Below, one piece after another: positions 25,608-32,016 of a stretch of 64,000 bases of DNA (position 1 is the first letter of the stretch; each line of letters starts with the position of its first letter). Under the pieces are notes generated by a model. That model was not told where the DNA came from. It ran no database searches and saw only the letters and a program-made list of their open reading frames with translations. Both the position numbers and the translations under genes were made by a program. This DNA comes from Nostoc sp. LEGE 12450 (GTDB lineage: Bacteria; Cyanobacteriota; Cyanobacteriia; Cyanobacteriales; Nostocaceae): NCBI RefSeq assembly GCF_015206895.1, contig NZ_JADEXU010000020.1:1-64000 (forward strand), given 5' to 3'.

Positions 25608-26447
25608 CTATTTCTGTTCTGCTGGTAAAATCTTGTTTTGCAGCCAACCCATTGCTTTATCCAAAAGCAACCCAACAACACCGATATAAACTAGAGCCAA
25701 AATAACTTCGCTGACGTTGTTATTTTGATAAGCGTCCCAGATAAAGAAACCAATGCCGACAATACCGGACATGACGATTTCGGCAGCGATAATCGCTAGC
25801 CAAGCTAAACCGATCGCAATTCTCAAGCCAGTAAAAATGTAGGGTAATGCCGCCGGAATCAAAATGTTAGTGAAATATTCTTTGCGGCTAAGTTGCAGAA
25901 CTTTGGCGACGTTGTTGTAATCTTGGGGAATTTGGGTAACGCCGACAGCAGTGTTAATTAAGATGGGCCAAATGGCGGTAATAAAAATTACGAATAAGGC
26001 TGCGGGTTCGTTTTGTCGTAAAGCTGCTAAAGAAATGGGTACCCAAGCTAGAGGTGGTACAGTCCGCAGTAGTTGGAAGATGGGGTCTAAAGCTTTGGAC
26101 ATGGTTTTATTAACCCCAATCAAAACGCCTAAGCCAATACCAACGATCGCAGCTAGGGTATAACTGATTGCAACCCGTTGCAGACTGGCGAGAATCTGCC
26201 AAAACAGACCTTTATCGAGGCCACCCCGGTCATAAAATGGCCAGAAAATCAGAATCCAAGTGTCTTGAACAACTTGTATTGGCCCTGGTAATGTAGCGCC
26301 CGGAGTCCAAGAGAAGAGTTGCCAGATAATGAGGAAGATTGCGATCGCGATCGCAGGTGGTATCAGGTCAGGAAATTGCTTTTTCAAGCTGGATATAAAG
26401 CCATTACTCAATCTAGGGCTTGCAGGGCGTTTTTGGGCTATTGTCAT
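25608..26447 (-). CDS. cmpB: ABC transporter permease, CmpB/NrtB type
   Basis: 279 residues with six predicted membrane helices (for example LIPPAIAIAIFLIIWQLF, YTLAAIVGIGLGVLIGV, VILALVYIGVVGLLL) and the cytoplasmic coupling loop of binding-protein-dependent permeases in the region WLAIIAAEIVMSGIVGIGFF. Length matches CmpB and NrtB. It forms the membrane channel with ATPases CmpC and CmpD and receives substrate from lipoprotein CmpA. The gap to cmpA is 82 nt and contains a palindromic repeat. Confidence 0.88.
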   Translation of the reverse strand: MTIAQKRPASPRLSNGFISSLKKQFPDLIPPAIAIAIFLIIWQLFSWTPGATLPGPIQVVQDTWILIFWPFYDRGGLDKGLFWQILASLQRVAISYTLAAIVGIGLGVLIGVNKTMSKALDPIFQLLRTVPPLAWVPISLAALRQNEPAALFVIFITAIWPILINTAVGVTQIPQDYNNVAKVLQLSRKEYFTNILIPAALPYIFTGLRIAIGLAWLAIIAAEIVMSGIVGIGFFIWDAYQNNNVSEVILALVYIGVVGLLLDKAMGWLQNKILPAEQK

Positions 26448-26490
26448 GATGTTGTATTCTCCGCAAATTTTATTTGTTATTTGTTCTAGA

Positions 26491-26529
26491 CGTGATTCAT
26501 CGCGTCTCTACAAGAGATGAATCGCGTCT
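26491..26529. repeat. Palindromic repeat in the cmpA-cmpB gap
   Basis: GTGATTCATCGCGTCTCTA then GAGATGAATCGCGTCTCTA: two copies of ATCGCGTCTCTA in tandem, whose flanks GATTCATC and GATGAATC are mutually inverted. On the mRNA it forms a hairpin directly after the cmpA stop codon, a possible processing or stability element raising the amount of binding protein relative to permease. Confidence 0.5.
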
Positions 26530-27912
26530 CTAAACACTGACCTTTTTGATTTTCAAATTCTTCAAATATTCTTCTGGCTTTTCGGGGTCAAATTTGATGC
26601 CATCAAAAAACTCTTCTACACCACGGGATGTATTTGTGGGAATATCAGCAGCAGCAATCCCAGCTTCTTTGGCAGCTTCTTTCCAAATATCTTCGCGGTT
26701 GACTTTGTTGATAAGTTCCTTAGCTTTTGCACCATTATTGTCAATGTAATCTTTTGGCAAGAATCCCCAGCGAACGTTTTCAACTATGAACCATAAATCG
26801 TGACTCTTATATGGATATGAAACACTACCTTTTTCATCTTTCCAGTAGTAAGCCGCCATTGATTTATCATCAATTTTGCGACCATCACCCATGTCATACT
26901 TACCTTGGTATGGATCAGCCAGTATTTCAGGTGAAGAAAGATTGAAATAATTCCGTCCAGCCAGAATTTGAGCAGCTTCTTTGCGGTTGTCAAAATTATC
27001 TAGCCATTGCTGTGCTTCCATAATTCCTTTTAAAATTGCTTTGGTAGCCTTGGGATTTTTATCAACCCAATCGCCTCTCATGGCAAGATATTCTTCAGGA
27101 TGATTCTTCCAAATCTCTGCGGTTAATGCTGCTACGTAGCCAATTTTGTCTTGCACCAGGCGATAAGGCCAGGGGTCACCTGTACTAAAGGCATCCATTG
27201 TTCCTGTTTTCATGTTGGCCACAGTTTGCGCTGCTGGTACTGTGAGCAACTTGACATCTGCATCTGGATCTAAGCCGCCTGCTGCTAACCAGTAGCGAAT
27301 CCACAAATCTTGGTTGACGTGGGGAAAAGTGAATGCAGCAGTGAAGGGTGTTGAAGATTTTAATTCCTTAAATAAAGACTTCGCGCCGGCAAGTTGTAGA
27401 CTAATACCTTTGCCTTGGTGCTTACTTGCGATCGCAATTCCATTCCCATGTGTAATTAATTGACATAAGACATACATGGGAATTTTTTTATTTCCCTTGG
27501 TGATTAAACCTTCTGTAATTAAATGTGGCATTGGCATCTGCCATTGACCGCCATCTATACCACCACCAGCAGAACCAATTTCTACGTTGTCTCTGGCTGC
27601 ACCCCAAGAAGCTTGTTTGGAAAGGCCAACATCAGTCATGCCATACTTTGCAAAAAATCCTTTTTCTTTAGCAATAATTAAAGGAGCTGCTTCTACAATG
27701 GGTATATATCCTAGCTTGACTGTAGTAGTTTCTGGTGTTTGTTCTGGGCTAATATTAACAACTGATTGAGCAGCTGGTTGTGCTTGAGTGCTTCCACCGG
27801 TGAGGTTGTCAGGAGGATTGCCCAAACAGCCTTTTAGAAATACAGCACTCGCAGATGCTCCGGCTGTAAATATGAATTTGCGACGGGAAATTTGATTAAA
27901 AAATTCTGTCAT
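26530..27912 (-). CDS. cmpA: Bicarbonate-type ABC transporter substrate-binding lipoprotein, CmpA
   Basis: 460 residues. The N-terminus combines a twin-arginine motif ([10 protein letters not shown]) with a lipobox (VFLKGC, Cys29), so it is a lipid-anchored periplasmic binding protein. CmpA and NrtA are close relatives. Features favouring CmpA are [17 protein letters not shown] instead of the GIDGAHILTPMPYLI of NrtA as I remember it, STGDPWPYR instead of GEPWN, and HPEEYLAMR, where nitrate binders have Lys (HPEK); Glu274 would match the Glu reported as a bicarbonate ligand in CmpA. No nirA or narB gene is near. Nitrate binding is the alternative. Confidence 0.82.
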
Positions 27913-28663: not shown

Positions 28664-29905
28664 TTACGTAGTATATTCGGCGTTAATCCTCACGTAGTCA
28701 TAACTCAAATCACAACCCCAAGCTTTACCCACACCATTACCGTTGCCAACATTAACGGAGATTAACACCGTATCATCTTGGAGATAAGCACCCGTCGCTG
28801 CTTTTTTCAAATAAGCACTCGCTGCTGCACGATCAAAAGTTAAGGGTTGCCCATTTTCTAACATTAAGAAATTTCCTAACTTAATTTGCAGGTTTTCTTG
28901 CTCAAATGGTATACCTGCACGTCCGGCGGCGGCGGCGATGCGTCCCCAGTTGGGATCTCGTCCAAAGATTGCAGATTTAACTAAGGATGAACCAGCGATG
29001 GTTTTGGCTATTTGCCGGGCTGAGAGTTCATCATGGGCCCCTGTTACTTCCACTTCTATTAGACAAGTTGCGCCTTCACCATCACGAGCGATCGCTTTGG
29101 CTAAATGCTGGCAAACTGCTGTTAACATGGCTTCTAATTTTTCTGCTTCTGCGCCCCATTCTATAATTGCTGGGGTACGAGATTGACCATTTGCCAAGGC
29201 GATTAAGCTGTCGTTGGTGCTGGTATCACCATCTACAGTAATGGAATTAAAGCTTCTATCAGCCGCCCTTGTTAACATCTGTTGCCAAAGGGCTGGCGAA
29301 ACCACAGCATCACAAGTAACAAATGCCAACATAGTTGCCATGTTGGGGTGAATCATGCCGGAACCTTTAGCAATACCACCAATTCGTACCGGGCGTTCAC
29401 CTACAATTGTCTCTAGGGCAATGGATTTTGTTACCAAATCTGTAGTGATAATCGCCCCAGCTGCGGCATCTGAACCTGTTGCTGATAGTGCTGCTACTAC
29501 ATTGGGAATCCCGCTTCGCAAAGCATCCATCTTAATTCTTTGACCGATCACGCCAGTGGAAGCCAATAAAACAGATTCAGACGAGATGTTTAGTGCGTGA
29601 GCTATTGCCAGAGAAGACTCTAGGGTATCAAGGTAGCCTTGATTACCTGTAGCAGCATTTGCTTGTCCAGCGTTGCAAAGGATGGCACGAGCGCTAGGTT
29701 TGGCTAGCAAGCGTTGACGACAATATTCTACACAGGCAGCTTTGACTTGACTGGTGGTGAATACACCAGCTGCGATCGCTTCCACCTCTGAAAATATCAA
29801 TGCTAAATCCGGCAACCCCGAAGGTTTCAACCCTGCGGTTATTCCCGCCGCCTGATACCCCCTTGGTGCTGTGATGCCACCTGTGATTTTTTGCCAATCT
29901 GCCAT
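28664..29905 (-). CDS. argJ: Bifunctional ornithine acetyltransferase / N-acetylglutamate synthase
   Basis: 413 residues with the ArgJ signatures ITAPRGYQAAGITAGLK, AILCNAGQANAATG, and the autocleavage site GSGMIHPNMATMLAF, where the Thr of ATML becomes the N-terminal nucleophile of the beta chain. FGRDPNWGRIAAAAGRAGIP is the C-terminal active-site segment. It transfers the acetyl group from N-acetylornithine to glutamate, and from acetyl-CoA in bifunctional forms, in the arginine cycle that also feeds cyanophycin. Length is normal. It stands alone, with the tandem small-RNA locus upstream. Confidence 0.95.
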   Translation of the reverse strand: MADWQKITGGITAPRGYQAAGITAGLKPSGLPDLALIFSEVEAIAAGVFTTSQVKAACVEYCRQRLLAKPSARAILCNAGQANAATGNQGYLDTLESSLAIAHALNISSESVLLASTGVIGQRIKMDALRSGIPNVVAALSATGSDAAAGAIITTDLVTKSIALETIVGERPVRIGGIAKGSGMIHPNMATMLAFVTCDAVVSPALWQQMLTRAADRSFNSITVDGDTSTNDSLIALANGQSRTPAIIEWGAEAEKLEAMLTAVCQHLAKAIARDGEGATCLIEVEVTGAHDELSARQIAKTIAGSSLVKSAIFGRDPNWGRIAAAAGRAGIPFEQENLQIKLGNFLMLENGQPLTFDRAAASAYLKKAATGAYLQDDTVLISVNVGNGNGVGKAWGCDLSYDYVRINAEYTT

Positions 29906-30131: not shown

Positions 30132-30182
30132 AAAAAAGAGAGCTGCCTAAGTAGCTCTCCAGATCATTACGGTGCATCTTTT
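30132..30182 (-). ncRNA. Candidate ~50-nt small RNA, copy 1
   Basis: On the minus strand: a TATACT -10 box (30194-30189), a predicted start near 30182, then AGATGCACCGTAATGATCTG, then a hairpin GAGAGCT-ACTTAGGC-AGCTCTC (30159-30138) directly followed by six T. This is a complete promoter-to-terminator unit too short to encode a peptide. The -10 to hairpin distance is 30 nt, identical to copy 2. I do not recognise it as Yfr1, 6S or a named Nsi RNA. A pure terminator duplication is the main alternative. Confidence 0.6.
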
Positions 30183-30283
30183 ACTCACAGTATATATTTG
30201 ATTATCTAAGAGTTAATACTTATTGATTAAGATTTATTCTACAATTTGAATGAAGCTACTCCGTAAATACCACAAAACTAGAT

Positions 30284-30334
30284 AAAAAAGAGAGCTACTT
30301 AGGCAGCTCTCCAGATCATCAGGGTGCATCTACT
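30284..30334 (-). ncRNA. Candidate ~50-nt small RNA, copy 2
   Basis: On the minus strand: TATAGT (30346-30341), then AGATGCACCCTGATGATCTG, then GAGAGCT-GCCTAAGT-AGCTCTC (30311-30290) and six T. The linear part matches copy 1 except for two substitutions (G to C and A to G in the TG/GATGATC region). The hairpin is the exact reverse complement of the copy 1 hairpin, so the two loops are complementary. It lies 152 nt upstream of copy 1 in the same orientation. Confidence 0.6.
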
Positions 30335-30540
30335 TACCACACTATATCATTTTAGGTATGCGGGTAGTCACCAGTTTTTATATGAAGATTTTATGAAGAA
30401 ACACCGAGAAAATACTTACTTTAGGTAGGGGACATTGGGCATTGAAAAGAGGCAGAGGGGAAAACTCTTCTCCCTTACTCCCTGCTCCCTTGCCCCCTGC
30501 TCCCTACTCCCTCACGCTTCAAACCTGCTTTGACAGACTA

Positions 30541-32016
30541 CTAAGCATTCAGTTTCTTTTCTACCAATTCGTTAGTCAGCTTGGGATCGGCACGTTTAGC
30601 TGTCTTTTTCAGAACTTGTCCGACAAAGAAGCCTTTAAGGTTGGTATTACCGTTGCGATACTTTTCTAGTTCTTTAGGATTGGCGGCTATGACTTCATCA
30701 ACAATAGGTTCTAGTACAGTAGGATCGGTAATTAACTCAAGACCTGCAAAGGCTTTTTCAGGAGAAATCCCACTGAGCAAATCTGGCAGTTTTTCTTTAG
30801 CTTGAGCATTACTAATTTTGCCCGTTTCAATGCGAGTAATGATCTCAGCTAAATTGGTGGGAGTCAGCCCGATTTGAGTAATAGTGAGTTTTTGCTTATT
30901 AAGATGGGCTGCGATATCTTGAGTAATCCAGTTTGCAGCAGCTTTGGGATTTGCTCCAGATGCGATCGCAGTTTCAAAATATTCGGCTATTGAACGATCT
31001 TCTGTCAACACTCGCGCATCGTAAGCCGAAAGCCCCAACTCACTTTCATAATGATGGCGTTTTTGGGCTGGTAATTCTGGTAATTCGCTGCGCCAGTTCT
31101 CTAATTCTGAATCCGTCACCTCAATTGGTGCTAAATCTGGTTCAGGGAAATAGCGATAATCGCTAGAACCTTCCTTTACCCGCATACTACTTGTGCGTTG
31201 AGCGCCTTCTTCCCACAGCCGAGTTTCTTGAATAATGCGATCGCCTGCTTCAATGGCGGCGATTTGGCGCTCAATTTCATAGTCAATCGCTCGTTGGATG
31301 GCGCTGAAGGAGTTCATGTTTTTAATTTCCACCTTGGTGCCAAATTCCTCTCGTCCCACCGGACGCACAGAAATATTGACATCGCAGCGCAGAGATCCTT
31401 CTTGCATATTACCGTCACTCACGCCGAGATAGCGGACAATCCGGCGTAACTCTTCGGCATATTCAGCAGCTTCTAATCCAGAACGCAGATCGGGTTCCGA
31501 GACAATTTCGACTAACGGTATACCTGCGCGATTGTAGTCTACCAGAGAATAGGAAGAACCGGAGAGGCGATCGCTACCGGCGTGTACCAATTTTCCCGCA
31601 TCTTCTTCCATGTGCAGACGTGTAATACCAATGCGTTTACGGGTGGGATTCCCCTCAGCATCTACCAACTCAATTTCTAACCAACCATGTTCTGCGATCG
31701 GTAGATCGTATTGAGAAATTTGGTAATTTTTGGGTAAGTCAGGATAAAAATACTGTTTCCGGTCAAACTTACTATATCTGGCAATTTGACAATTCAGTGC
31801 CAAACCAGTTTTGACAGCGTATTCTAATACTTTTTCATTGAGTACAGGTAAGACCCCAGGTAAACCCATACAAACCGGGTCAATGTTAGTATTTGGGTCA
31901 GCACCAAATGCCGTAGAGCTATTAGAGAAAATTTTGGTCTTGGTACTCAGCTGACAATGGGTTTCTAGACCAATAATCGCTTCATACTCAGTTTTTACAG
32001 TTGTAGCAGTCGTCAT
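30541..32016 (-). CDS. gatB: Asp-tRNA(Asn)/Glu-tRNA(Gln) amidotransferase subunit B
   Basis: 491 residues, the usual length. EYEAIIGLETHCQLST at the N-terminus, CMGLPGVLPVLN, YSKFDRKQYFYPDLPKNYQI, the HMEEDAGKL motif, DYNRAGIPLVEIVSEPD and the GatB/Yqey tail (EKAFAGLELITDPTVLEPIV) are all present. Subunit B is the kinase/tRNA-binding part of GatCAB, which converts misacylated Glu-tRNA(Gln) to Gln-tRNA(Gln). No gatA or gatC lies nearby, which is normal for cyanobacteria. The 30347-30540 gap downstream holds only a CTCCCTGCTCCC-type low-complexity repeat. Confidence 0.97.
   Translation of the reverse strand: MTTATTVKTEYEAIIGLETHCQLSTKTKIFSNSSTAFGADPNTNIDPVCMGLPGVLPVLNEKVLEYAVKTGLALNCQIARYSKFDRKQYFYPDLPKNYQISQYDLPIAEHGWLEIELVDAEGNPTRKRIGITRLHMEEDAGKLVHAGSDRLSGSSYSLVDYNRAGIPLVEIVSEPDLRSGLEAAEYAEELRRIVRYLGVSDGNMQEGSLRCDVNISVRPVGREEFGTKVEIKNMNSFSAIQRAIDYEIERQIAAIEAGDRIIQETRLWEEGAQRTSSMRVKEGSSDYRYFPEPDLAPIEVTDSELENWRSELPELPAQKRHHYESELGLSAYDARVLTEDRSIAEYFETAIASGANPKAAANWITQDIAAHLNKQKLTITQIGLTPTNLAEIITRIETGKISNAQAKEKLPDLLSGISPEKAFAGLELITDPTVLEPIVDEVIAANPKELEKYRNGNTNLKGFFVGQVLKKTAKRADPKLTNELVEKKLNA

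Follow-up and report, generated by a model that had tools for sequence, protein, structure and literature searches.

Between gatB and argJ in a Nostoc genome lie two short units on the minus strand, each of which looks like a small-RNA gene and whose terminator hairpins mirror each other. What are these units, what might switch them on, and why are their hairpins mirror images? Our analysis of the window (the whole stretch of 64,000 nt) makes it probable that the two, here called U1 and U2, are tandem copies of a HetR-activated, trans-acting family of seed-bearing small RNAs (sRNAs), U2 being a decaying duplicate with an inverted hairpin.

Anatomy of the two units

The features of the locus, from upstream to downstream, are the following.

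30541..32016, minus: gatB, neighbour upstream of the units (NCBIfam NF004012, 690 bits, cut-off 338)
30361..30372, minus: weak HetR-type box of U1 at −35, GGTGACTACCCG, with 6/8 letters of GGGG-N4..6-CCCC
30341..30346, minus: −10 box of U1, TATAGT
30284..30334, minus: U1, putative small-RNA gene of ~51 nt, its start at 30334 placed from the −10 box
30318..30333, minus: 5′ seed of U1, GTAGATGCACCCTGAT, 16 letters common to NsiR1
30290..30311, minus: terminator hairpin of U1, GAGAGCTGCCTAAGTAGCTCTC, 22 nt, then T6 at 30284-30289
30189..30194, minus: −10 box of U2, TATACT, with a −35-like TTAACT at 30211-30216
30132..30182, minus: U2, second copy, with a putative start at 30182
30138..30159, minus: terminator hairpin of U2, GAGAGCTACTTAGGCAGCTCTC, 22 nt, flipped relative to U1, then T6 at 30132-30137
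28664..29905, minus: argJ, neighbour downstream of the units (TIGR00120, 531 bits, cut-off 298)

Re-reading of the sequence confirmed what an earlier note on this DNA had described, namely two minus-strand units with TATACT/TATAGT boxes, a shared body, and a hairpin followed by T6. The distance from the −10 box to the hairpin is equal in both units, as that note had said, but we counted 29 nt and not 30. The starts of U1 and U2 lie 152 nt apart, and the units are 81% identical across 64 nt, with bodies of ~20 nt that read AGATGCACCCTGATGATCTG and AGATGCACCGTAATGATCTG, respectively. Their 22-nt hairpins are indeed exact reverse complements and form one inverted repeat. The predicted fold has 4-nt loops in both hairpins, the 8-nt loops being partly paired, and in U2 the 4-nt loop is closed by a single isolated pair.

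Both units have what is expected of an sRNA gene with an intrinsic terminator: a −10 box of their own, a short body, and a hairpin with a T-run. Two terminator-like sites were observed against 0.5 (sd 0.8) in shuffled sequence, while the two promoter-like sites at the locus showed no excess over chance (1.6 in shuffles). Because the terminator-like sites exceed the shuffles, and because many other genomes have promoter, body, and hairpin as well, the pattern at this locus is more than chance.

Downstream of argJ, also on the minus strand (25608-27912), the window encodes ntrB, the permease of a nitrate ABC transporter (343 bits, above cut-off), and a substrate-binding protein that scores below its family cut-offs.

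Spread of the family and its relation to NsiR1

When U1, together with the sequence upstream of it, was used as the query of a DNA search, matches came from 187/192 Nostocaceae genomes, covering 56/56 genera. We then built a covariance model, R1, from 72 distinct units. It scored U1 at 81.1 bits (E 3e-16) and U2 at 69.9 bits, both being members of the training set, and the next-best matches in the same genome reached at most 25 bits, among them NsiR1 copies at 19-21 bits. R1 matched 161/291 genomes sampled from the order and 142/291 sampled from the class, two draws that overlap. At the place of the −10 box, TAnnnT was present in 178 of the 188 distinct family units kept by our unit filter (11% in shuffles), and the covariation of the hairpin was modest. 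The earlier note had proposed a duplicated small-RNA gene with its own promoter and terminator, to be given up if homologues conserved a terminator alone. The recurrence of −10 box, body, and hairpin across genomes supports this proposal, the body and the −10 box being among the best-conserved parts. No Rfam family reached its gathering score, either in the window or in eight loci of relatives. The literature covered (outside subscription papers, supplements, and figures) held no description of a gatB/argJ sRNA family.

gatB and/or argJ adjoin the units in many families, including family f18, in which no HetR was found, while some copies lie next to gatB without argJ, and several copies of family f15 have neither gene within ~1.5 kb. 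Multiple copies are common and often tandem, with eight at one Scytonematopsis locus (L102) and up to 14 R1 matches per genome in two f15 genomes. In three f15 loci (L185, L186, and L188), 4, 6, and 7 near-identical copies follow one another in tandem at a period of ~220-250 nt, and no gatB or argJ was found in the stretch around these arrays. In several genomes of genus g63, argJ adjoins the main unit but gatB is absent from the stretch, and the g63 loci L152-L157 have a divergent copy (TATGCACCCTAATAA... or similar) downstream of gatB. Orthologues of U2 are present in many Nostoc, and are degraded or lost in several relatives. The U2 seed, GATGCACCGTAAT, differs from that of U1.

The earlier note had found no match to known families by eye. 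This holds for Rfam at gathering score, but NsiR1 had been missed, whose 16-nt 5′ end is identical to that of U1. With relaxed thresholds, Rfam RF02399 (NsiR1) matched U1 at 32.7 bits (E 8e-5), short of its gathering score of 39, and did not match U2 up to E 10. The seed GTAGATGCACCCTGAT is complete in U1 and in 5/8 GATGCACC copies of the NsiR1 array of the same genome, and U2 differs from it at several places. The genome has 13 NsiR1 matches, and those listed sit on contig C137, in an array whose neighbour, according to the literature, is hetF. Of the eight occurrences of the 12-mer TCAGGGTGCATC (reverse complement of GATGCACCCTGA) in this genome, seven lie in the NsiR1 array and one in U1, while the reversed 12-mer occurs 0 times. 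Over 20 genomes its total was 175 against 2 for the reversed control, hits outside the genome under study being taken as counts.

NsiR1 of PCC 7120, which is heterocyst-specific, shares with the family the GTAGATGCACCCTGAT 5′ end, a length of ~50-60 nt, an intrinsic terminator, tandem copies, and probably a link to HetR. It differs in its hetF locus, its DIF1 (TCCGGA) promoter, and its hairpin. The DIF1 motif was found upstream of 0/188 family units and of 5/8 NsiR1 copies of the genome under study, and U1 and U2 lie between gatB and argJ, not in an array next to hetF. Unlike NsiR1, the family has a HetR-type box and the gatB/argJ locus, and occurs also in lineages in which no HetR was found. 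According to passages of PMC9045159, NsiR1 depends on HetR and acts as a repressor of hetF and of alr3234, a hetP-like gene. In Limnospira, which lacks heterocysts, a 57-nt RNA resembling NsiR1 is reported, in the part of PMC8400943 consulted, as regulated in RNA-seq.

Other published sRNAs of PCC 7120 were compared by their descriptions and not by sequence. Like the U1/U2 family, sRNA 4547237r and NsiR8 are short, and NsiR8 needs HetR, according to sections of PMC4734099. The same sections give 4547237r a length of 51, detection by Northern blot, and a presence in 12/27 heterocystous genomes, and state that their sRNA lengths exclude the poly-U. In contrast, the U1/U2 family is present in 187/192 Nostocaceae and U1 measures 45 nt without poly-U, counted from its putative start. 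Because the family is so widespread and of that length, its identity with 4547237r is unlikely, the two being set apart by description and not by the PCC 7120 sequence. The pipeline of that work, as described in those sections, discarded starts less than 200 nt from the next same-strand gene, and may have overlooked a unit lying so near to argJ. Yfr1 and Yfr2 are, as is the U1/U2 family, widely conserved in cyanobacteria, but Yfr1 carries another conserved motif, CACUCCUCACACC (PMC4734099, same sections).

A third kind of seed-bearing unit, GGTAGATGCACCTTAATAA, was seen in the genome under study at L111 (G000:C302:39161-39213, minus). The hairpin that follows it is different and terminator-like (AGCCC..GGGCT, T6), and R1 scored it at 18.4 bits (E 0.9).

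The HetR-type box and the occurrence of HetR

HetR is the protein that turns cells into heterocysts, which fix nitrogen. Most of the copies read outside the genus Nostoc have GGGG-N5-CCCC upstream, often extended to CCCCTCA. This dyad lies ~44 nt before GATG, which is −35 relative to the putative start. The portion of PMC4192349 used here gives the requirement of HetR as GGGnnnnnCCC and the hetP site as GAGGGGTCTAACCCCTC.

Boxes were scored in distinct units as the letters of GGGG/CCCC out of 8, with a spacer of 4-6 and a position of −48 to −40, in loci chosen among the better matches listed. A score of at least 7/8 was reached in 29/29 units of f15, 7/7 of f2, 6/6 of f12, 2/2 of f29, 1/1 of f3, and 1/1 of f33, while shuffled controls reached 7/8 in at most 0.21%. 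In the Nostocaceae genera other than Nostoc, 35/67 units reached at least 7/8 and 60/67 at least 6/8. In the genus Nostoc these counts were 1/53 and 32/53. At the locus itself, U1 has 6/8 and U2 3/8. In other orders of the class, the box was present in 20/20 loci picked from the better matches listed, 14 of them (16 units) at 8/8 by the filter and six read directly, with L260 scored separately. The unit filter, which kept the 188 distinct units, had lost L173 and L174 (f30), some f29 units, and both loci of genome G397; the box was present in these when read directly.

The dyad is common to the family and to the known HetR-box promoters (hetP, hetZ). Those promoters drive protein genes of heterocyst development, whereas the box of the family precedes a predicted sRNA, also outside the Nostocaceae. 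In most lineages examined, the dyad stands where a −35 box would be expected and agrees with the HetR site, which makes HetR the most likely activator of the gene. Within the genus Nostoc, the box of U1 is weakened and that of U2 almost gone, and for this reason U2 is read as a decaying duplicate. The part of the HetR ChIP peak table of PMC4192349 considered here names neither argJ nor gatB, the U1/U2 locus being unplaced on the PCC 7120 map.

A search for HetR (PF03574), which covered the genomes drawn from the order, found it in 163/291. With strict R1 filters, HetR and the sRNA occurred together in 133 genomes, the sRNA only in 28, HetR only in 30, and neither in 100. The Fisher test of this co-occurrence gave p 2e-25, a value uncorrected for kinship that overstates the evidence because the genomes are related.

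The 28 R1-matching genomes without a HetR match comprise 12 of f18 and 11 of f8, together with G397, G447, G042, G240, and G346, and their loci were read for all of these except G346. The RNA of f8 is intact, with the 18-mer GTAGATGCACCCTGATGA free of mismatches in 10/11 loci. The f8 loci L203-L212 have this perfect 18-nt 5′ seed behind a quite different promoter, and 10/11 f8 loci have neither gatB nor argJ within ~1.5 kb. In f18, the gatB neighbour is kept in 11/12 loci. The box was absent from its place, even at 6/8, in both families (0/7 distinct units in f18 and 0/10 in f8, 0/17 jointly). When it was allowed anywhere upstream, 4/10 f8 units reached 6/8 and 0/10 reached 7/8. In G397 (82% complete) and G447 (89%) the box is present but HetR was not matched, perhaps because part of the sequence is missing. 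In G042, which is 99% complete, a 7/8 box likewise stands without a HetR match, and this counts against the HetR reading. The R1 match in G240 (L213, f32) showed no credible unit on inspection.

Probable mode of action and the flipped hairpin

As we picture it, the family, whose genes are frequently found downstream of gatB and/or upstream of argJ, would consist of complete copies. Each has a −35 dyad, a −10 box, a predicted RNA of ~51 nt whose 5′ seed, GUAGAUGCACCCUGAUGAUC, is for the most part unpaired, and a hairpin that serves as intrinsic terminator. In the most likely mechanism, this seed pairs with mRNAs in trans, like that of the sibling NsiR1, which uses DIF1 (TCCGGA) promoters. Since the seed is common to NsiR1, shared targets are predicted.

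Candidate targets were also tried directly. For the argJ mRNA, the mean duplex energy was −16.5 with the seed itself and −14.6 (sd 1.7) with shuffled versions of it, and 11% of 200 shuffled seeds did as well over 89 distinct argJ starts, so that the pairing was not significant. A hetP-like target site, ATGTATCAGGGT, guessed from the NsiR1.4 paper, gave 11 hits in 8/17 genomes against 6 reversed-control hits. No hetP-like protein was common to the reading frames taken from these hits, of which only those of G193 and G084 were alike, and the candidate site was dropped. As for a short peptide read from ATGCACCCTGAT, several sequences enter the terminator without a stop when read by eye.

Three other accounts of the units bear on this reading. 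The units could be tandem leader terminators that attenuate the transcription of argJ, and it would fit such a cis element that in many Nostocaceae they share the strand of argJ and lie a short way upstream of that gene. But every copy has its own −10 box, some copies lie next to gatB without argJ and some loci have neither within ~1.5 kb, and the conserved 5′ seed recurs in the NsiR1 array, at a separate site of the genome, so we regard attenuation as unlikely. Still somewhat less probable is that they are NsiR1 itself, as stray members of the hetF-linked family. The identical 16-nt 5′ end, the tandem copies, and the RF02399 match (32.7 bits, E 8e-5) speak for this, but the score stays below 39, the hairpin differs, TCCGGA stands upstream of none of the 188 units as against 5/8 NsiR1 copies, and the units have a locus of their own with an old gatB synteny, while R1 gives the NsiR1 copies of the genome 19-21 bits. 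A DNA repeat that yields no RNA might likewise be tandem and dispersed, with up to 14 matches per genome; against it stand the order of promoter, seed, and terminator, the fixed spacing, and the gatB linkage, all conserved across several families, and we consider it very improbable.

The mirror-image hairpins had led the earlier note to suggest a self-pairing pair of sRNAs, one hairpin having been flipped. The flip is borne out. Among 32 U2 loci, the core was nearer to the reverse orientation in seven (the genome under study, G220, G007, G001, G027, G018, and G015), whereas the U1 core was forward in 31/31 loci passing the filter; the U1 of L007 failed the T-run filter, which leaves 31 two-unit loci, and hairpins were read in a fixed register. 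The margins were wide in G007 and G015 (9 v 4 of 10), 8 v 6 in G001, 7 v 5 in G027, and 8 v 5 in G018; those of the genome under study and G220 were 6 v 4, yet these are exact flips of U1. On a tree built from segments of argJ and gatB at 31 loci (G011 of the 32 was too short), parsimony gave five orientation changes with all seven calls, four with the genome under study, G220, G007, and G015, and two with G007 and G015 alone. The U2 core has therefore, by parsimony, changed orientation repeatedly.

The pairing itself did not stand. A kissing complex or duplex of the two RNAs would follow naturally from 22-nt hairpins that are exact reverse complements, but this complementarity occurs in only 2/31 two-unit loci (the genome under study and one other), the predicted loops are only 4 nt, copy numbers vary in relatives, U2 is degraded or lost in several of them, and reversed cores are limited to U2. 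We find such a pair barely credible. The mirror-image hairpins most plausibly arose by accident, as a mutation in a copy under relaxed constraint, and do not represent a pair made to work together. Template switching between the arms of short inverted repeats inverts the spacer, as described in passages of PMC8604942. The U2 hairpin was most likely inverted repeatedly in this way, between its stem arms, and its exact match to the flipped U1 hairpin would point to a recent event.

The identity of the family's seed with that of NsiR1 offers a handle on targets. With a HetR-type box found across the class and missing in two lineages in which no HetR was found, the sRNA is a concrete candidate target of HetR, one that can be tested in non-heterocystous strains. 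We also offer a tentative history, which is plausible though we would not quite favour it: HetR may ancestrally have driven a multi-copy gatB-argJ seed RNA before heterocysts arose, NsiR1 would be its DIF1 sibling of the heterocyst era, so that two HetR-dependent promoters would feed one RNA seed, and the lineages that lost HetR would have rewired the promoter and kept the RNA.

The U2 hairpin is, besides, a natural case of repeated inversion within a terminator. Exchange between the copies is seen as well: in at least three genomes (L028-L030), a single unit joins the U1 promoter to the U2 downstream flank, an apparent product of recombination between U1 and U2.
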